Shown here: positions 5,000 through 56,441 of the stretch, piece by piece
Layout: the number at the start of each line of letters is the position of its first letter
Position numbering within the stretch: the first letter of the stretch is position 1
NCBI GenBank assembly: GCA_007376205.1
Contig: VMFU01000004.1
Span: 1-64,000 of the forward strand
DNA length: 64,000 nucleotides
Source of the DNA: Candidatus Peregrinibacteria bacterium Gr01-1014_25
Lineage (GTDB): Bacteria > Patescibacteriota > Gracilibacteria > Peribacterales > Peribacteraceae
Direction of reading: 5' to 3'
The notes under the pieces: model-generated
What the model saw: the letters and a program-made list of their open reading frames with translations, nothing else
Told to the model about the DNA's origin: nothing
Database searches by the model: none
Program-made: the position numbers and the translations under genes

Positions 5000-5400
5000 T
5001 CCATAGACAATGTGGGAAAGACGCCGCGCGTTCCATTGCGCAGTGAACGTCCTGATGCCCGTGCCGCGGCGCACGTGAAATTGCTCCAGAGCTGTCGCCA
5101 TGCTCTGAAGCGGGTTCCGGTCGGTCAAAGGATTTCACCCCTCACGACCGGCGCCTCCTGCGCGTTCCTCCGTGATCCAGAAGATGGATCAGGTGGGGAC
5201 AGTATACGTCGTGTGACGTGTCGCCTAATCCCAAGGGAAGGCGTGCGACTGCAGAAGGCTAGTGAGGGGTATCTAATCCCTCACATAGGGTGACCAAGCA
5301 CTGCGGCTTGGGCCCGTGAATGAACCCTATGCCGTCCCGTTGGCAGTGACAAGACGCGGGAGCATCAGTCTTTCGCTGGCGGAATCGGCGGATCGGGATC
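5000..5400. ncRNA. Candidate structured non-coding RNA, strand unresolved
   Basis: No convincing gene lies here, yet local helices are dense: CCGGTCG/CGACCGG (5117-5123, 5145-5151), TGATCC/GGATCA (5173-5178, 5186-5191), GTGAGGG/CCCTCAC (5262-5268, 5278-5284), and CATAGGGT/ACCCTATG (5284-5291, 5324-5331) enclosing CCAAGC/GCTTGG. I looked for RNase P RNA, tmRNA, SRP and 6S landmarks and could not confirm any. The stretch may be one of these in a divergent form, a lineage-specific RNA, or repeat debris. Confidence 0.35.
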
Positions 5401-5466
5401 CGGCATGAGCTTCCATTGCCATCCCTCGATTACGCGCGGGATGACAATGCCGGTAAGGTATTCATT

Positions 5467-6246
5467 GTGATAGACAGCCATTGTCACCTTGCCGATAAAG
5501 CATTCGACGCCGACCGCGACGCGGTGATCGCACGGGCGCACGCCGCGGGCGTGACGACGATGATCTGCATCGCCGACACGCTGGAGGAGGGCAAACGCTG
5601 CGTCGAGATTGCCGGGCAACATGAGGGCGTCTTCGCGACGGTCGGCGTGCATCCGCACGTGAGTAGCCAGTGGACAGCAAGCAGCGGACAGCGGCTCGAA
5701 GAGTTGCTTCGCTCGTCGCCGAAGACCGTCGCCGTCGGTGAAGTTGGGCTGGACTACCATTACATGCGGTCGACGATTGATGAGCAGCAGGCGGCGTTCC
5801 GTGAGCAGCTAGCATTGGCGAAGAGCATGGAGTTGCCGGTCATCGTGCACTGCCGCGAGGCGGTGGAGGATGTCTGGCGCATCGTGGACGACGTGCGGCC
5901 GGACCAGCTGGTGTTGCACTGCTGCACGGAAGCGTGGGCGGACGTCGCGCGATTCGTCGAGCGCGGATATCTGCTTTCCTTCACCGGCATCGCGACGTAC
6001 GCGAATGCACAGACGGTGCGTGACACGATCGCGCAATGCCCGCTGGAGCACATGATGATTGAGACCGATGCGCCGTATCTGACCCCTGAAGCGCTGCGCG
6101 CGGAAGGCGGTCGTTCCATGCGCAACGAACCGGCATACGTCGTCGAGGTCGCGCGGGGCATCGCCGCGGTGACGGGTAAAGACATCGACGACATCGCTGC
6201 CATCACGTCGCGAAATGCGGTAGAGTTTTTCCGCTTGTCCCCGTAG
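5467..6246 (+). CDS. tatD: TatD-family metal-dependent deoxyribonuclease
   Basis: TatD enzymes are TIM-barrel metallohydrolases with 3'-5' DNase activity. Metal ligands are visible in order: DSHCHL, VGEVGLDYHY, VIVHCREA, LHCCTEAW and ETDAPYL. I chose GTG 5467, which begins the conserved IDSHCHL and has TAAGGT ending 7 nt upstream; an upstream TTG at 5416 would add repeat-derived residues. A heptamer block (5664-5696) inserts SSQWTASSGQRLEE after GVHPHV. The stop lies inside the first 10 nt of tRNA-Arg. Confidence 0.92.
   Translation: MIDSHCHLADKAFDADRDAVIARAHAAGVTTMICIADTLEEGKRCVEIAGQHEGVFATVGVHPHVSSQWTASSGQRLEELLRSSPKTVAVGEVGLDYHYMRSTIDEQQAAFREQLALAKSMELPVIVHCREAVEDVWRIVDDVRPDQLVLHCCTEAWADVARFVERGYLLSFTGIATYANAQTVRDTIAQCPLEHMMIETDAPYLTPEALRAEGGRSMRNEPAYVVEVARGIAAVTGKDIDDIAAITSRNAVEFFRLSP
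5664..5696. repeat. Heptamer repeat block in tatD
   Basis: Degenerate GTGGACA/GCGGACA units with 7-bp phasing lie in frame after the HPH motif of tatD, in a surface loop. Confidence 0.65.
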
Positions 6247-6311
6247 GTTAACGGATAGACCACTGGCCTCCGAAGCCGGGAATACAGGTTCAATTCCTGT
6301 CGGGGACACCA
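6237..6311 (+). tRNA. tRNA-Arg(CCG) overlapping the tatD stop
   Basis: Acceptor GTCCCCG/CGGGGAC, anticodon loop CTCCGAA (anticodon CCG), T-loop GTTCAAT, discriminator A and encoded CCA. The first 10 nt encode the last codons and TAG stop of tatD. TAGAGT (6221-6226), inside tatD, ends 10 nt before the tRNA and may be its promoter element. Confidence 0.95.
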
Positions 6312-6367
6312 TTCGACTTCCTCTGACCTGAAATGCCCCTTAGAATGGAGATACAGCAATTCCTTTC

Positions 6368-7771
6368 ATGATGCGAAAACATCCGCCCGCCCGCCCATCC
6401 AAACGTTCCCGTTCGCGGAAACGATCGGCTGCCCGAACCGTGCATCCGCTCGTGTCGTGGGGTGGGACGGGCATGGTGATCAGCCTGCTCGCGGTGGCGG
6501 CCATCGTGTTCGCCGTCGGACCCGAGCACGTGCAGGCCGATGTGCTGTCATCGTCGAGCCAGCAGCGGTCGGTGACGCGCATCCTCACACTCCCGCGTCG
6601 CGTGTTGCGGCATCTTGGCGTTGTGCGAGATGCGCCTCTCTCTGCGCCCATCTCGCGTCGCGATGCGCGACGGGCCGAGCGTCTGCGTACTCAATCGGCT
6701 TCGTCGTCTCCGGAATCATCGACGTCGTCGGCGCCGGAACCGCCGCCGCAGAATCCCTATAGCCAGATCGGCGTCTACCTCACGGCACAGTCGGGTGGGA
6801 ACGCGGATTTCGTGCAGACCACGCTCGATGCGCTGCAGAGCGCCGGTGGCACGACGTTCGTGCTCGATGTGAAGGGGCACTGGGTGTACTACCACTCGCA
6901 GGCGGCGATGGCCCGCGATATCGACATCATCCGACCGGCGTACGAGCTGCCGGATATCCTCGCCCGGGCGAAGGCGCGGGGCATGTATACGATCGTCCGC
7001 TACATCGCCATCAAGGACGAAGGGTTCACCGAACGCAGGTCGGACGCTCAATTGAAGCACAAGACCAAGGGATACCCCGTCGGCCTCGGCTGGTCGGATC
7101 CTGCAAACCCCATCGCGCAAGAGTACAACCAGCAGCTGATTTGCGAACTGGCGATGATGAGCGACCTCGACGAGATCAACCTCGATTACATCCGTTTCAG
7201 CTCGTACATGCCGTACTCGACGGGCTACTCGGGCGATGAGAAGGCCGAGCGTCTGCTGTCGTTCCTTCGTATGACGCGCGAGACGATCGACCGTTGTGGC
7301 TCGCACGTGAAGCTGGGCGTGAGCACGTACGCGATTCTGGGATGGAGCTTTGCGATCAACCGCGAGACGATCGGGCAAGACATCATCGCGTACGCGCCGC
7401 TCGTCGACGTCATCTCGCCGATGGCCTATCCCGCGACGTTTACCTCGGCGGGATACTACGTTCCCGGGCAGCATCCCCGCAGCCGCCCCTACTGGCTGGT
7501 CTACCGGACGCTCACCGGCTACCGCGCGCTGCTTGGGCCGGAGCAGGAGAAGAAATTGCGGCCGTGGATTCAGGCCTACAGTTTCGCGGCGAAGGATATC
7601 AAGGACGAGATGGACGCGGTGGTGGACGCCGGTCTTTGCGGCTTCACATTCTGGAACGCGAACAACAATTACGGACCGACGCTGCAGGCGCTCGGTACCT
7701 GGGCGCAGCCCGACCGCTGCAAGACGGGCACCGTCTCCGTCGAGGCTCCGAAGCTGGGGATGTTGCTGTGA
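6368..7771 (+). CDS. DUF4015 putative glycoside hydrolase, membrane-anchored
   Basis: The N-terminus is Arg/Lys-rich (residues 1-30), then a membrane helix (MVISLLAVAAIVFAVG), a Ser/Pro-rich linker, and a TIM-barrel-like domain from about residue 130. GVYLTAQSGG, FVLDVKGHWVYY, NLDYIRFSS and ISPMAYPATF match the DUF4015 family, predicted to cleave glycans. It probably acts outside the membrane on cell-wall or surface glycans; the substrate is unknown. It sits between tRNA genes without an obvious operon partner. Confidence 0.85.
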   Translation: MMRKHPPARPSKRSRSRKRSAARTVHPLVSWGGTGMVISLLAVAAIVFAVGPEHVQADVLSSSSQQRSVTRILTLPRRVLRHLGVVRDAPLSAPISRRDARRAERLRTQSASSSPESSTSSAPEPPPQNPYSQIGVYLTAQSGGNADFVQTTLDALQSAGGTTFVLDVKGHWVYYHSQAAMARDIDIIRPAYELPDILARAKARGMYTIVRYIAIKDEGFTERRSDAQLKHKTKGYPVGLGWSDPANPIAQEYNQQLICELAMMSDLDEINLDYIRFSSYMPYSTGYSGDEKAERLLSFLRMTRETIDRCGSHVKLGVSTYAILGWSFAINRETIGQDIIAYAPLVDVISPMAYPATFTSAGYYVPGQHPRSRPYWLVYRTLTGYRALLGPEQEKKLRPWIQAYSFAAKDIKDEMDAVVDAGLCGFTFWNANNNYGPTLQALGTWAQPDRCKTGTVSVEAPKLGMLL

Positions 7772-24090: not shown

Positions 24091-25779
24091 TTAGGGAAGA
24101 GGGAGGAGGCGGGAGATGGAGGAAAGGGGCATGCGACCGAGGCAGACGAGAAGGCTGCCGGACAAAACGGGGGCGGACGCTGCGGAGAGGAGTTCCACGG
24201 GCTGTCCGCAACCTACTGCGAAGGCGTCGGCTCCCGCGTCACTCGTGAACACGATGCGGCCGAACACACCGCGCGACGTTTCGCCGAGTTCGCGGAGGAT
24301 GGATTCCTCCCGTACGCCCAGTTCCATGATGCCGCTGGTGAGGAGAATTCTGTCGCGTTCAGGACGGCTCTTCGCCCATTCCACCGCGGCGCGGAAACTC
24401 TCCGGACTGCAGTTGTAGGTATCGTCGAGCACGGTGCAGCCGCGCTCCGTGCGCATGGAGAAGGTGTGGGCCATGCCGGCGAATGACCGCAGGCGATCGG
24501 CGATCTCTGCAAGCGAGCGGCCAAGGTGACGTGCAGCGCCGATGGCGAGGAGGGCATTGAGGACATTGTGTTTGCCATGGAGCGGCAGGCGCATCGGCGT
24601 TCCCTGCACGATAAACGAGAGTCCCCCGGCGTCCTCGCGGATGTCGTCCGCCCGCAGGTCGGCGTCGGCGACCGTACCGACCGCTGTCACGGGACAGAGC
24701 GCGGCGGCGCGGAGGAGGGGGAAGGCGGCGTCATCGGCGACGAGAATGGCGCGGCCGCCTTTCGGGAGCGCTCGTAGCAGTTCGGCGTTCGCTTCGCGGA
24801 TCGCGTCGATGGAGCCGAAGAGGCCCAGGTGATCGCGGCCCAGGGTCGTCACGATGCCGATTTGCGGCTTGGCGATGCGGCAGAGCGTGGCGACCTCGCC
24901 CAGGCGATACGCGCCCATTTCGACGATAGCGATCAAGTGATCAGCGGGCAGTTTCGTTGCTGTTCGCTGTTCGCTGCCTGCTGTCCACTCCCGCAAGAGC
25001 CACTGCGCCACACCCATTTCCGTGTTCACGTGCTCCGGGGTCGCGATAACGTTCGGGATTCGGGATGCGGGATCCGGACTGCGGAGAATGTGTGCCAGCA
25101 ATTCTTTCGTCGTGGTCTTGCCGACGCTGCCCGCTATGCCGATGACAACAGCGTCCGTGTTCGCGCGCAGGCGCGCCGCGCGTTCCATCACGCGGCATTT
25201 GAGCAGGGCATCGAGGGGGGAGAGCAAAGCGAGGCTGACGGCGATAACGAACGGCTGGAGCACCGGCAGCAGGACCGGATGCCAGAGCGGCTCAAGAAGC
25301 GGCATCGGCCGCGCCAGCAATGCGGCGGCCAGAACGGCGTCGAGGGCGAGCGAGAGCGCGACGACCGCGAGCGCTTTCTGTGTCCACACGGGCAGCACGT
25401 TGCGACGCAGGAATTGGATGCACGCGAGGGCGACCGTAGCAATCAGGCCGATGTCTCCGGCGTTTGTGCTCCAGAGCGCGAGCGCGATCACTGCGACGAG
25501 GAGCGCGGCCTGCATCGTCACGCCGAGGGATCGAAGCCTTTCCCGCCGCAGATGTTCCCGCAGACGGTCCCACCGCCATTCTTTCATCTGCCAGAGGCGC
25601 GCAGCAGCGAGGAGAGGCGCGACGCAGGCGACGAGTGTCAGGAAGACGGACGAGACGGGGCCGAGGGCGACGGAAAAGGTTTCAATGATGCCCAGGAGCT
25701 TACCGAAACCCTTCCTGCAGCGGCGTATCGAAAGTTGCCAAAAATGATAAATTAGAGTACAATAATCACAAATGCACAC
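24091..25779 (-). CDS. murF: UDP-MurNAc-tripeptide D-Ala-D-Ala ligase MurF with an N-terminal membrane region
   Basis: MurF adds D-Ala-D-Ala to the UDP-MurNAc tripeptide. The Mur ligase core starts near residue 215, with the P-loop GIAGSVGKTTTKEL, EMGAYRLGEV, TTLGRDHLGLFGS, HGKHNVLNALLAIG and DDTYNCSPESF. The first 200 residues hold about five hydrophobic helices, a membrane-anchored form. Two heptamer blocks (24956-24986, 25052-25077) sit in loops. The start is uncertain: GTG 25779 is the only upstream canonical one but lies across a divergent promoter; ATC 25689 (TAAGCT 7 nt upstream) is possible. Confidence 0.9.
   Translation of the reverse strand: MCICDYCTLIYHFWQLSIRRCRKGFGKLLGIIETFSVALGPVSSVFLTLVACVAPLLAAARLWQMKEWRWDRLREHLRRERLRSLGVTMQAALLVAVIALALWSTNAGDIGLIATVALACIQFLRRNVLPVWTQKALAVVALSLALDAVLAAALLARPMPLLEPLWHPVLLPVLQPFVIAVSLALLSPLDALLKCRVMERAARLRANTDAVVIGIAGSVGKTTTKELLAHILRSPDPASRIPNVIATPEHVNTEMGVAQWLLREWTAGSEQRTATKLPADHLIAIVEMGAYRLGEVATLCRIAKPQIGIVTTLGRDHLGLFGSIDAIREANAELLRALPKGGRAILVADDAAFPLLRAAALCPVTAVGTVADADLRADDIREDAGGLSFIVQGTPMRLPLHGKHNVLNALLAIGAARHLGRSLAEIADRLRSFAGMAHTFSMRTERGCTVLDDTYNCSPESFRAAVEWAKSRPERDRILLTSGIMELGVREESILRELGETSRGVFGRIVFTSDAGADAFAVGCGQPVELLSAASAPVLSGSLLVCLGRMPLSSISRLLPLP
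24956..24986. repeat. Heptamer block (TTCGCTG) in murF
   Basis: TTGCTG/TTCGCTG/CCTGCTG units, the same vocabulary as the block before metG (9546-9580), encoding EWTAGSEQRTA. Confidence 0.8.
25052..25077. repeat. Heptamer block (GGGATTC) in murF
   Basis: GGGATTC/GGGATGC/GGGATCC units encoding PDPASRIPN. Confidence 0.8.
25735..25763 (+). promoter_or_regulatory. Promoter giving a leaderless small-ORF transcript
   Basis: TTGCCA (25735-25740), 17-nt spacer, TACAAT (25758-25763). The expected transcript start is within about 2 nt of ATG 25772. Confidence 0.75.
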
Positions 25780-36969: not shown

Positions 36970-38337
36970 TTAGAGCACGGATATTTCCCGTTGAAAGACC
37001 TCTCCTTTTTCCTCGAAATTCTTGAACATGTTGTAGCTGGGGGAGGCTGTTGAAAGCAGGCAGATCATTCCCTGCGGTGTGTGCTGTTTTGCATGCGCAA
37101 CGGCATCCGCCATCGATGGTGCATCGAAGAAGCATATTTCCTGCGCTCCCTCTCCCCCAGCCCCTCCCCCATGGGGGGAGGGGTGCTCGGTACGAGCGGG
37201 GAGAGGGGGTGGGGGCATTGCTTCCTCGATGGCCTTCCGGATCCTCGGTCCGCTGCCGGGGAAGAGGATGACCGTGCGGACCGGCGAATGTGCGATGCGT
37301 TTTCCCAAGCTAGTAAAATCGAGGCCGCGGTCGGTGCCGCCCAGGATGACCGTTGCGACGCGGTCGCCCAGCGCGTCGAGCGCGGCGATCGTCGATTCCG
37401 GCGTGGTGGAGATCGCGTCGTCGATCCATTCGATGCCGTGATGGATGCCGAGCGATTGCAAGCGATGGGGGAGCGGTGTGAACGTCGCAATCGCATCGAG
37501 GGCAGTGGCGCGATCGATCCCCACGTGCATCGCGACCGCGAACGCGCCGGCGATGTTGCCGAGGTTATGCTCGCCGATGAGGTGCGTTTCTTCGATCCGG
37601 AGCGGGGCGTCCTCGGGGCCGAAGGGGGTACGTTTGCCGGGGCTCTCCTCGGCGATTGCTTGCGCCCCCTTGGAATGCCGGTTGAAAAACACCGCATCGG
37701 CGGCGCCTTGAAAACGCGTGATGTGCCTCTTCGCTTCCTGGTAGGCATCAACCGACCCATGGTAGTCGAGGTGCTCGGGGAAGAAGGACGTGATGACGGC
37801 GGTATGCGGGCTGGTCGTCAGGTCCATCAGCTGTGCGCTGCTCATTTCTTGAACAAAAAATGTATTCGGTTTAGCGCGCTCGAGGTAGTCCAAAACGGGC
37901 TTGCCGATGTTCCCGACGAGATGAGCGTCTTTCCCTGCGGCATGCAGGATGTGGTGGATGAGCGATGCCGTCGTGCTCTTGCCCTTGGACCCCGTCACGC
38001 CGATGACCGTCGCTCCGCTGTCTGCGATGGAATCGAGGAAGATTTGCGTGGCGCTTGTGAGCTGTGAGCTGTGAGCTGTGAGCTGTGAGCTTGGAGGAAT
38101 GCCGGGAGATTTGATGATCACGTCGAATCGGTCGAGGTTGTGAAGATAGTCACCCCCCGTTTGCCAGCGAACGTTCGTCTCTTCCGTCTTCCTTCTTCCG
38201 TCTTCCTTCTTCGCCTGGTCCGCGATGGTCACCTCCGCCGTCGGCGCGTACTTTCGCAGTGCGGCGAGGGTCGACCGGCCCTCCTTCCCGAAGCCCAGGA
38301 TGCAGACGGTTTTGCCGTTGAGATCGCGGATGTGCAT
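36970..38337 (-). CDS. murD: UDP-MurNAc-L-Ala:glutamate ligase (MurD; likely MurD2 type, L-Glu)
   Basis: The N-terminal Rossmann segment VCILGFGKEGRST, P-loop GVTGSKGKSTTASL, EMSSAQL, PEHLDYHGS and ISTTPESTIAAL show a Mur ligase of MurD order. It starts 4 nt after murL, whose product epimerises L-Glu already attached to UDP-MurNAc-L-Ala; by that logic this ligase would add L-Glu (MurD2). Two heptamer blocks (38054-38094, 38181-38213) and a GC-rich palindromic repeat (37144-37212) are inserted in frame. Confidence 0.88.
   Translation of the reverse strand: MHIRDLNGKTVCILGFGKEGRSTLAALRKYAPTAEVTIADQAKKEDGRRKTEETNVRWQTGGDYLHNLDRFDVIIKSPGIPPSSQLTAHSSQLTSATQIFLDSIADSGATVIGVTGSKGKSTTASLIHHILHAAGKDAHLVGNIGKPVLDYLERAKPNTFFVQEMSSAQLMDLTTSPHTAVITSFFPEHLDYHGSVDAYQEAKRHITRFQGAADAVFFNRHSKGAQAIAEESPGKRTPFGPEDAPLRIEETHLIGEHNLGNIAGAFAVAMHVGIDRATALDAIATFTPLPHRLQSLGIHHGIEWIDDAISTTPESTIAALDALGDRVATVILGGTDRGLDFTSLGKRIAHSPVRTVILFPGSGPRIRKAIEEAMPPPPLPARTEHPSPHGGGAGGEGAQEICFFDAPSMADAVAHAKQHTPQGMICLLSTASPSYNMFKNFEEKGEVFQREISVL
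37144..37212. repeat. GC-rich palindromic repeat inside murD
   Basis: CCCCTCCCCC and its complement GGGGGAGGGG flank the centre ATGG; outer CTCTCCCC/GGGGAGAG continue the palindrome. In frame it adds a Pro/Gly-rich loop to the C-terminal domain. Similar CCCTCTCCCC palindromes are dispersed repeats in many genomes (general knowledge). Confidence 0.7.
38054..38094. repeat. Heptamer block (GAGCTGT) in murD
   Basis: Five tandem GAGCTGT units, in frame (encoding SSQLTAHSSQLTS). Confidence 0.9.
38181..38213. repeat. Heptamer block (CTTCCGT/CTTCCTT) in murD
   Basis: Alternating CTTCCGT and CTTCCTT units, in frame (encoding KKEDGRRKTEE). Confidence 0.85.
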
Positions 38338-38341
38338 GGCT

Positions 38342-39703
38342 TTACGCGAGGATCGTCGAGTAATCGGGCGGGATCGCGTGATCGGGATTCGGGACGAGAC
38401 AAGCACGGACGAGCGCATCGGGATCGGTAATGTCCGGCAAGGCTTCTGCGACGAACATCCGCATCGCCGCGGAGCCTTCCATATCCCCCCGCTTGTGCGC
38501 GAGGCAGAACGCGGCGCGCGTTTCTTCGGGCGTGCCGACGCAATCGAAGGGTTTCACCCCCTCGATGCCGAGGAGTTGGCGGTACGTCGGCAGGAGTGTT
38601 TCGCTCTCGAAGAGATTCGATCCCACGATGGATGCGGCCTGTTCCGCGGAGAGAAACGCGGCGAGCATGGCGAAGGCAAACGCGCATTTGGAGCACTGCC
38701 CGCACCACGGGATTGCTCCGGCTTTGAGTCTTGAGCTTTGAGTCTTGAGCTTCCAGTTGGTATTGCAGCTCGTGGTGCACGTGAAGTACTGGGGATGCGT
38801 TGCGAAACGCTGCACGATCGCCAGTTCGGAGAGCGGGCGCAGCAAGCTGAACGCGAGAATATCCGGCGTGATGAAGCGCCCGACGTATTCCTGGAACAGG
38901 CGCTCGAAGGTCAGGCTCTTGCTCCACTGATGGTTGATTTCCCTGCCATGGAACATCAGTGAGCCGACGTTCGCGCTGCGTTCGTTGCTGAAGACGACGG
39001 CGCCGTGGCCGTAGAGAAATGCCGCGACCAGCCCCAGGAAGTGCAGGTACGCCGTGATGGGCACGTGGCCGTTGAGGGCGCCCTGCTCGTTGAGGGAGAA
39101 GAGCTCCGGAGCCATCGTGCGTTTGATGCCGAGGAGCGGCAGGCCCGCCGTCCGCGCCGCCTGCGTGATGAGCGGGTGGGCGTTCATGCGCAGCAGCACG
39201 GCGGGCACACCGGCACTCTTGAGGAGCTCGATGGTGACGACGGAATCTTTGCCTCCGCCGATGGGGCAGAGCACGGTCTGGGTGTCGCGTTTGACGTGCA
39301 TCGGCTCGGGCGTCTCCGCTGCCGTCGCCGGAAAGCGGATGAGGCCGGTGAAGTCGATGTCGTTGCGGTAGAAGAATTCCCCCAAGCCGTTCTCGTAGAC
39401 CTCCGTCCAGAAGCGGGCCTGGTCTTCGGTCAACGCGCCCGAGCGGATGACGATGCTGCGGGGCAGGCAGGTTTTGTAGTAGCTGACGCCGCCGATGAGG
39501 TGCAGGGCGAAGAGCGCGCGGTGCAGGAGTTGCCGCGGGATGCCGCGGGACTTGAGTCCCTGCCTGGGCAATTGCAGCGTTTCGGTGAAACGCACGTCGC
39601 CGCTGCCGTCGCCCGCGCCTTCCAGGACGTAGTCCATCTCGATGCGTGCGGATTTGGCATCGAACCGGTAGGCCTCGAAAACGAAGCGTTCGTAGGTCTG
39701 CAT
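38342..39703 (-). CDS. murL: MurL: UDP-MurNAc-L-alanyl-L-glutamate epimerase
   Basis: The 453-aa protein has a PP-loop-like motif CPIGGGKDSVVT (near residue 146), ERSANVG, and the Cys cluster CTTSCN...CGQCSKCAFAFAM. These match my memory of the MurL family, which uses ATP to epimerise the terminal L-Glu of UDP-MurNAc-L-Ala-L-Glu to D-Glu, replacing free D-Glu from MurI. The adjacent murD gene, 4 nt downstream, supports the call. A heptamer block (38722-38752) interrupts the Cys region. Identification rests on pattern and context, not an alignment. Confidence 0.8.
   Translation of the reverse strand: MQTYERFVFEAYRFDAKSARIEMDYVLEGAGDGSGDVRFTETLQLPRQGLKSRGIPRQLLHRALFALHLIGGVSYYKTCLPRSIVIRSGALTEDQARFWTEVYENGLGEFFYRNDIDFTGLIRFPATAAETPEPMHVKRDTQTVLCPIGGGKDSVVTIELLKSAGVPAVLLRMNAHPLITQAARTAGLPLLGIKRTMAPELFSLNEQGALNGHVPITAYLHFLGLVAAFLYGHGAVVFSNERSANVGSLMFHGREINHQWSKSLTFERLFQEYVGRFITPDILAFSLLRPLSELAIVQRFATHPQYFTCTTSCNTNWKLKTQSSRLKAGAIPWCGQCSKCAFAFAMLAAFLSAEQAASIVGSNLFESETLLPTYRQLLGIEGVKPFDCVGTPEETRAAFCLAHKRGDMEGSAAMRMFVAEALPDITDPDALVRACLVPNPDHAIPPDYSTILA
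38722..38752. repeat. Heptamer block (TTGAGTC/TTGAGCT) in murL
   Basis: TTTGAGT and CTTGAGC alternate, in frame (encoding KLKTQSSRLKAG). Confidence 0.85.
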
Positions 39704-54634: not shown

Positions 54635-56014
54635 TTATCGTGCGGAATTCGGGATTCGGGAATCGGACGGAGGGGAACGCAGTTGTTCCCGTAGCAACGT
54701 GCGCGTGATCTCCTGCTCGTTCCACGGAATCGGCCCCGACGGCGTCATGCGGATGGGGTAGCTGCCCAGCCCACACAGGATGACGGCGTCCCCGGGCCCG
54801 GCGAGCGCGAGGATGCGCGCGATCGCCTCGCGGCGGTCGAAAATCTTGTGGGCCTGCGTCCTGGACTGATCGACGCCCGCCCACACGTCTTCCATCACGC
54901 TGCGCGGATCCTCGGCGTACGACTCGTCATCGGTGACGACGATGACATCCGCTTTTTCCGAGCAAATCGCGCCGATCAGCGGCCGCTTCTCCTTCATGCG
55001 GTCGCCGCAGCTGCCTGTGAGCACGAGCACGCGTTTGCCCGGTCCGACGATCTGCCGGACGGTCGTGAGAGTTTTCTCGAATGCCTGCGGCGTGACCGCG
55101 AAGTCGATGAAGACGGAGAACGGTTGGCCTTCATCGATGCGCTCCATGCGTCCCGGCACGCCGGTGAAAGACGCGAGCGCGGCGACGGTCTCCTGCAGGG
55201 GAATGCCGAGTGCCTCCGCGCAGCCCAGCGCGCAGAGGGCGTTGGAGGCGTTGAAAGCCCCCGGGATAGGAAGACGGAGTGGGCAGCGAGTAGCGAGTAG
55301 CGAGCAGTGGATGTCTGCGGATGTTTCCTTCGGCGTACTCATGACATCACTTGCCCAAAGCTGCGAGATGCGAGAGGGGAGATGAGAGATATCAGATTTC
55401 ATCATCTGCCATCCATCATCTGCCATCTGATTGGCCGCAAACGTAATCGTGTTGTCTGATGGTATTCTCGTGTACATCGCGTACGTGGCGTCATCCGCAT
55501 TCAGCACTTTGGTCCCGCCGCCGCCGAGCATGTGGAACAGGATTCCTTTGTCGCGGCGGTACTGCTCCATCGTGCCATGGTAGTCGAGGTGCTCCATCGC
55601 GGTGTTTGTGATCGCCGCGACCGCGGGCCACGTCCAGTGGGTGCGAAACTGGACCAATCCGTGCGATGAATATTCCAGGACGGCATGCGTGCAGCCGGCG
55701 TCGACGCACGCGCGCAACCATTTCTGCACGACGAACGGGGAAGGAGAGGTTTTCTGCGAAGGGTTGCCGCGGACGGCGTCACCGACCCGGATCGAAGCGG
55801 TCGAGAGCATGCCGACGCGGCGGCCCGTTGCGCGGAGGATATGAGCGACCATGCCCACGGTCGTCGTCTTGCCGTCGGTGCCGGTGATGCCGATGACCGT
55901 CAGGCGCCGCGCGGGGAAACCGTAACGGAGAGCCGCAGCAAACGCCTTGCTGCGGTGCCACAGCAGGCGGAGGGGATGGCGGTCGGGGAGGAGGCGGCGC
56001 AGGAGGGAGAGCAT
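54635..56014 (-). CDS. murE: Mur ligase, MurE-like (third amino acid)
   Basis: MurE adds the third residue to UDP-MurNAc-L-Ala-D-Glu. P-loop GITGTDGKTTTVGM, YSSHGLVQFRTHW, TNTAMEHLDYHGTMEQY and NASNALCALGCAEALGI are visible. The mDAP-specific DNPR motif is replaced by TDDESYAEDPR, so the third residue is not clearly mDAP. Three heptamer blocks (54644-54670, 55281-55309, 55363-55432) are in frame, the last supplying QMADDGWQMMKSDISHLPS. The start at 56014 follows a heptamer-rich spacer. Confidence 0.85.
   Translation of the reverse strand: MLSLLRRLLPDRHPLRLLWHRSKAFAAALRYGFPARRLTVIGITGTDGKTTTVGMVAHILRATGRRVGMLSTASIRVGDAVRGNPSQKTSPSPFVVQKWLRACVDAGCTHAVLEYSSHGLVQFRTHWTWPAVAAITNTAMEHLDYHGTMEQYRRDKGILFHMLGGGGTKVLNADDATYAMYTRIPSDNTITFAANQMADDGWQMMKSDISHLPSRISQLWASDVMSTPKETSADIHCSLLATRCPLRLPIPGAFNASNALCALGCAEALGIPLQETVAALASFTGVPGRMERIDEGQPFSVFIDFAVTPQAFEKTLTTVRQIVGPGKRVLVLTGSCGDRMKEKRPLIGAICSEKADVIVVTDDESYAEDPRSVMEDVWAGVDQSRTQAHKIFDRREAIARILALAGPGDAVILCGLGSYPIRMTPSGPIPWNEQEITRTLLREQLRSPPSDSRIPNSAR
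55281..55432. repeat. Two heptamer blocks in murE
   Basis: AGCGAGT/AGCGAGC units (55281-55309) and GAGATGC/GAGATGA with ATCTGCC/ATCCATC units (55363-55432), all in frame. Confidence 0.8.
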
Positions 56015-56072
56015 GACGAGGGAATAAGGATTCGGGAAGAGGACGGAGGGATGGAGACCTGTGACGAGGGAC

Positions 56073-56441
56073 TTAAGACGTAAGCAGGATAGCGCGGGCT
56101 TGCCGGATATCTTCTGCGATTTGCGTGGCAAGTTCTTCGGCGTTCGCAAAAGCGCGGACATCCCGCAGCCGCCCGGCGATCCCTACGGCGATGCGCTCCG
56201 GAGGGGCATCGACCGCCCGGTCAAGGAGATGCACCTCGCAGGAACGCGTATCGCCGAACGTGGGGCGTGGGCCGTAGTGGAGAACGGCGGGACATACAAC
56301 ATCGACCCAACACGCATACACCCCTTCCGCGAGATCAGGCGGAACGTCGGCAAGGTCCAGGTTCAGCGTCGGCATGCCCAGATGCTTCCCGCGGCCGCGG
56401 CCGGGGAGCACGTTTGCGGAGAACGATCGTCGATCCGTCAC
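56073..56441 (-). CDS. Single-domain riboflavin kinase
   Basis: A 122-aa protein with GKHLGMPTLNLDL (PTAN-like motif), GVYACWV and PTFG...EVHLLD, matching the riboflavin kinase domain of RibF that makes FMN. The FAD-synthetase domain usually fused to it is missing. The start is GTG 56441, overlapping the upstream TGA by 4 nt. Confidence 0.82.
   Translation of the reverse strand: MTDRRSFSANVLPGRGRGKHLGMPTLNLDLADVPPDLAEGVYACWVDVVCPAVLHYGPRPTFGDTRSCEVHLLDRAVDAPPERIAVGIAGRLRDVRAFANAEELATQIAEDIRQARAILLTS

Follow-up and report, generated by a model that had tools for sequence, protein, structure and literature searches.

A murL-murD2 gene pair as the probable D-glutamate route of a Peribacteria-type patescibacterium

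The first 64,000 nucleotides of contig VMFU01000004.1 of Candidatus Peregrinibacteria bacterium Gr01-1014_25 (hereafter the window) carry two adjacent genes, murL and murD2, that very probably constitute the route by which this Peribacteria-type patescibacterium (genome 1.12 Mb, 99.93% complete) obtains the D-glutamate (D-Glu) of its peptidoglycan, a reading to which we assign a probability of roughly 0.9. In this D-glutamate module MurD2 would add L-Glu to UDP-MurNAc-L-Ala and MurL would then flip the residue to D, a route in which neither free D-Glu nor a glutamate racemase would be needed. The observations that carry this reading are the identity and linkage of the two genes, the absence of the known D-Glu-making enzymes, the MurD2-type residues and phylogeny of the ligase, the near-exclusion between MurL and the glutamate racemase MurI, the existence of MurL-MurD fusions and the predicted PP-loop fold of MurL. 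The genes are arranged as follows:

38342-39703, minus strand: murL, a single open frame encoding MurL (453 aa), assigned by the NCBIfam profile NF041275, an AlphaFold2 model and its PP-loop fold
38338-38341, minus strand: gap of 4 nt between the murL stop and the murD2 start, read from the sequence
36970-38337, minus strand: murD2, encoding a 455-aa UDP-MurNAc-L-Ala ligase with L-Glu as its predicted substrate, assigned by the profile TIGR01087, specificity residues and clade

The product of 38342-39703 matches NF041275, the NCBIfam model of MurL, with 396.5 bits (E 1.1e-118), far above chance level and over the full length (residues 3-449 of 453, profile positions 6-440 of 447). The equivalog cut-off of this model, 700 bits, is tuned to Xanthomonadales, and in our calibration one Lysobacteraceae MurL scored 784 bits and two Micromonosporaceae MurLs 417 and 419 bits; published assays cover the MurD2/MurL activity of Micromonospora sp. 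and Salinispora tropica (PMC8788868). Pfam offers no domain for MurL, and a phmmer search of the window MurL against the PDB gave no match, an alignment profile and a structural model being needed instead. Both motifs by which an earlier note on this DNA had recognized MurL were found:

39242-39259, minus strand: GGGKDS PP-loop of MurL, residues 149-154 (alignment of 39 MurLs; profile match to TtuA)
38684-38767, minus strand: cysteine set of MurL, C313...C334-x2-C337-x2-C340, a putative metal site

Across the 39 MurLs, G149-D153 of the loop and all four cysteines (C313, C334, C337 and C340) are invariant, and S154 is conserved in at least 90%. The cysteines may bind a metal, their CxxCxxC spacing presumably recalling the zinc site of QueC, and the stretch E255-I-N-H-Q-W-S-K262 together with R195, H213 and E241, also invariant in MurLs, provides candidate catalytic residues. 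Altogether 45 columns are invariant across the MurLs of Micromonospora, Lysobacteraceae and Patescibacteria. The TAA stop codon of murL is followed by AGCC and then by the ATG of murD at 38337, exactly the 4-nt spacing first noted, and the two genes, murL lying upstream, probably form one transcription unit; in almost every relative MurL and MurD are either neighbours or fused.

The racemase bypass proposed in the earlier note is supported by searches with PF01177 and TIGR00067, which detected no Asp/Glu racemase, and hence no murI, in this genome. Equally absent from it are PF01063 aminotransferases, the family that includes D-amino-acid transaminase, and DapF (PF01678), which doubles as glutamate racemase in Chlamydia; a Chlamydia-style role for DapF was rejected on this absence. 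PF01177 matches in some relatives were likewise not accepted as MurI, most of those in the window's family being weak on TIGR00067 (<47 bits) and aspartate-racemase-like.

The only MurD of the genome carries the residues of an L-Glu ligase. MurD2 of Xanthomonas oryzae differs from E. coli MurD by D182E, K348R, A414P and L416F; the double change E197D/R358K turns X. oryzae MurD2 to D-Glu, identifying two chirality-setting residues, and K319T makes E. coli MurD accept L-Glu (PMC8788868). Alignment located the corresponding positions:

37774-37776, minus strand: MurD2 E188 (E. coli D182, X. oryzae MurD2 E197)
37411-37413, minus strand: MurD2 I309 (E. coli K319 position)
37327-37329, minus strand: MurD2 R337 (E. 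coli K348, X. oryzae MurD2 R358)
37033-37041, minus strand: MurD2 P433 and Y435 (E. coli A414 and L416; X. oryzae P433 and F435)

The window MurD therefore has Glu and Arg at the D182 and K348 positions, and Pro and Tyr at the A414 and L416 positions, where we counted Tyr for Phe, the MurD2 of Micromonospora also having P/Y. Read over positions D182/K319/K348/A414/L416, the window gives E/I/R/P/Y, Micromonospora E/L/R/P/Y and Lysobacteraceae E/I/R/P/F. The MurDs of MurI-bearing relatives in the class nearly always have Lys and Ala at the 348/414 positions, an exception being L171 (family f6) with Thr and Lys.

Consistent with these residues, a tree of 91 MurD rows (a quick IQ-TREE run with the C20 PMSF model, some branches being long) gathered the MurL-linked MurDs into one clade of 66 rows (SH-aLRT support 99), all but that of L055, which lies next to it. 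Here the window MurD stands with those of Micromonospora, Lysobacteraceae and Magnetococcales, so that Actinomycetota and Proteobacteria are represented; only three MurL-less rows are nested in the clade, and the remaining MurI-linked MurDs, two from the window's own family included, fall outside it. The MurL tree has much the same topology, with Peribacteria together and with Magnetococcales, Micromonosporaceae, Acidimicrobiales and Lysobacteraceae apart from Patescibacteria. Neither of the outcomes that the earlier note had named as refuting its proposal, a murI gene combined with a MurD in the classical clade or a failure to match the MurL profile, was what we found. In Magnetococcales (L062, L066, L071, L073), a group not listed for the route in PMC8788868, MurL also adjoins a MurD2-type ligase. 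As a separate observation, the MurDs of the TGA-recoded L127 (G057) and L129 (G048) lie inside the MurD2 clade and have Cys and Ser at the D182/K348 positions (TGA = Gly); both MurL and MurI are missing from G057.

To place the pair in its lineage, we counted MurL and strong MurI matches in 288 genomes of the class, each at least 85% complete, and in 381 genomes drawn evenly from the phylum. In the class, 142 genomes have MurL, 110 a strong MurI, one has both (G005) and 37 have neither, and the exclusion gives a Fisher p of 2e-45, a value that overstates independence because the counts are taken over related genomes. Both states occur within each of families 1, 2, 6, 10, 14, 15, 16, 19, 29, 30 and 31. 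In the phylum sample, MurL was found in 61 genomes, MurI in 114 and both in one, 207 having no MurL and no strong MurI match. Within the window's family MurL is present in 62 of the 65 genomes at least 85% complete, which upholds the description of this pair as the D-Glu route of the lineage. The one complete genome of the family without MurL, G175 (100% complete), has MurI (189 bits) and a canonical-type MurD (N/S/K/A/F). G005 has a murL-murD2 pair and also a murI-murD pair, each MurD being of the matching type (D/T/K/A/F for the murI-linked one), and its murI-murD-murC contig may be a contaminant, since it is separate, only 6.5 kb long and has a GC content of 0.49 vs 0.475.

In several Patescibacteria MurL and MurD are fused: a single open frame encodes 770-890 aa and retains both sets of motifs in intact form (L063, L064, L067, L068, L070, L072, L076, L081, L082, L169, L170, L174-L177, L023 and others); in L023, NF041275 matches residues 23-425 and TIGR01087 residues 453-854. 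Such a fusion would link the two steps directly.

A structural basis for the second step is suggested by the AlphaFold2 model of MurL, built from 39 sequences with a mean predicted local distance difference test (pLDDT) score of 94.1 and a predicted template modelling score (pTM) of 0.93. The best solved match found by Foldseek has a QueC-type fold (QueC 2pg3, E 5.5e-5, TMt 0.62), further ones are Cap9, QueC 3bl5 and TtuA, and a profile search also matched TtuA around GGGKDS (E 1.2e-4). Together these matches lead to the prediction that MurL is a PP-loop ATP pyrophosphatase with an SGGxDS-type loop (GGGKDS) in a HUP fold. PP-loop enzymes adenylate their substrate, and pyrophosphate is released. 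The MurL reaction has been reported to use one ATP and to form AMP, an alpha-carboxyl adenylate was proposed, and the enzyme was described as having no known conserved domains and an ATP-to-AMP mechanism that was not clear (PMC8788868). The modelled PP-loop core would fit both this chemistry and the proposed adenylate: MurL, using this core and ATP, would adenylate the alpha-carboxylate of the newly added L-Glu. The reaction in this bacterium is one that we infer, and so is its adenylate intermediate, a published hypothesis.

Several observations weigh against the murL-murD2 route. The window MurD passes the cut-off of the generic murD model TIGR01087 (281 bits), a model blind to the difference between L-Glu and D-Glu ligases, and the window MurL, like those of Micromonosporaceae, lies below the 700-bit cut-off of NF041275. 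Some MurL-bearing genomes of class family f6 have MurD residues of neither type (L167, D/I/G/K/Y; L168, D/I/R/A/W; L174, D/I/D/K/F), which makes the residue rule less than universal, and in these three the chirality determinants may differ. Moreover, the mutual exclusion of MurL and MurI was counted over related genomes, and the absence of murI by itself says little because 207 of the 381 phylum genomes have neither route.

The alternative that survives best, although we consider it improbable, is that the window MurD is a canonical D-Glu ligase supplied with D-Glu by salvage from a host or by a racemase that escaped recognition, the MurL-like protein having some other function. A life on other cells is assumed for Patescibacteria, and the many genomes with neither MurL nor MurI, as well as the TIGR01087 score, would suit this explanation; against it stand the near-perfect alternation of MurL and MurI with matching MurD types, the conserved adjacency and the fusions, and the canonical assignment of the ligase itself was rejected on its specificity residues and its place in the MurL-linked clade. 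Less probable still is that the relative of MurL acts, as a PP-loop enzyme in the manner of QueC or Cap9, on another carboxylate and was recruited beside MurD: these are indeed the closest solved folds, and the substrate does not follow from a fold alone, but the full-length match to the MurL equivalog, the 45 invariant columns and the linkage and fusion to MurD argue for MurL proper. That the two genes are decaying, broken by the repeats within them (three heptamer arrays, one palindromic element), is the least credible proposal, given that both frames are intact with their catalytic motifs, that the models are confident with dips mainly at the repeat-coded loops, and that the corresponding loops of relatives hold repeats of other kinds.

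These repeats lie at the following positions:

38721-38752, minus strand: heptamer array, MurL residues about 318-328, TTGAGTC/TTGAGCT, 2.3 copies of a 14-mer (Tandem Repeats Finder, TRF)
38180-38212, minus strand: heptamer array, MurD2 residues 42-53, TCTTCCG/TCTTCCT, 4.7 copies (TRF; variable loop in the alignment)
38056-38091, minus strand: heptamer array, MurD2 residues 83-94, TGTGAGC, 5.1 copies (TRF; alignment)
37144-37215, minus strand: palindromic CCCTCTCCC-type element, in frame, MurD2 residues about 375-398 (alignment)

The earlier note had described heptamer insertions in both genes. The arrays are real, and those at 38180-38212 and 38721-38752 lengthen loops by a few residues in frame, but the array at 38056-38091 covers a variable MurD segment, adds no length relative to homologues and is not an insertion. 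The CCCTCTCCC-type element is an insert relative to most MurD homologues. Repeat-coded parts are among the least confident of the models: MurL residues 321-330, in a loop whose length varies among homologues, form the only low-confidence block of that model (mean pLDDT 53), and MurD residues 41-50 and 381-400 have a mean pLDDT of 75 and a pLDDT of 61-64, respectively. The arrays thus look tolerated rather than functional.

Exact tandem arrays of at least 20 bp in the window comprise six of period 7 and one of period 10, with none of periods 4-6, 8 or 9; heptamer arrays lie at 2292, 13665, 21865, 23889, 38056 and 55285. Among tandem arrays in Peribacteria (relatives L035, L038, L043, L044, L045, L047 and L052), heptamers of widely varying unit sequence are over-represented relative to other periods, and in several genomes they strike MurD and MurL, with units that differ. 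In L049 (Peregrinibacteria Greene0416_19) the loop of MurD (5365-7227, plus strand) that holds the CCCTCTCCC-type element in the window has an in-frame insert of more than 150 aa, within which a complete domain with the DUF559 nuclease fold (PF04480, E 5e-32) lies between stretches of similar repeat-coded peptide, and the MurDs of L002 and L038 have other inserts in the loop corresponding to 37144-37215. A literature search for described DUF559-linked palindromic repeats returned nothing relevant.

A peptidoglycan pathway is expected in this bacterium, since the genome has four Mur ligases, only one of them a MurD, and FemAB, FtsA and FtsZ are also encoded in the window. The fourth ligase, expected to be MurC, is on another contig, and the other two are in the window:

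24091-25779: MurF
54635-56161: MurE

In the literature searched, from which subscription papers were mostly absent, we found no report of the MurL route in Patescibacteria, so that MurD2/MurL would here be a known route in a lineage for which no report was found, and the MurL-MurD fusions a new form of it. According to PMC8788868, the route is limited to relatively few genera, all proteobacterial or actinobacterial, and is being pursued as a target for narrow-spectrum drugs. Its known range is changed by the present counts, which extend it to nearly every genome of the family to which the window belongs, to roughly half of the class sample (142/288) and to about one in six genomes of the phylum sample (61/381), and it would explain the source of D-Glu in these small genomes, which lack murI. 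It is reasonably probable, though much less so than the role of the pair in this bacterium, that MurL/MurD2 is a major and long-established D-Glu route of Patescibacteria, that the pair changes places with MurI/MurD as one matched unit, and that several lineages have joined both enzymes in a single polypeptide, which would have a QueC-like adenylating core and both ligate L-Glu and invert it. The natural swaps (G175, G005) and the fusions offer material for tests of MurD chirality and MurL chemistry, and the QueC-like fold suggests a basis, itself testable, for the ATP-to-AMP mechanism.

Among known systems, the closest is the MurD2/MurL pathway of X. oryzae (XOO_1320/XOO_1319) and Micromonospora (PMC8788868), with which the window shares the two adjacent genes, the MurD2 residues, full-length MurL homology and a genome without a known D-Glu-forming enzyme. 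It differs from both in belonging to a 1.1 Mb patescibacterium, in its repeat-coded loops and in the fused forms of its relatives; unlike in Micromonospora, where the genes are on opposite strands, murL is here followed by murD2 on one strand, and unlike the MurLs of Xanthomonadales, the window MurL reaches only 396 bits on the profile tuned to that group. The canonical MurI/MurD route of E. coli and of the class relatives G175, G246 and G243 has the MurD fold in common with the window, but combines a glutamate racemase, which the genome of the window lacks, with a MurD bearing Lys and Ala at the 348/414 positions, and has no MurL. Finally, QueC is the 7-cyano-7-deazaguanine synthase and works by carboxylate adenylation; its structures (2pg3, 3bl5) share a PP-loop ATP-pyrophosphatase core with the predicted MurL model, whereas MurL is extended by large parts at both termini, and its sequence as a whole shows no detectable similarity to that of QueC.
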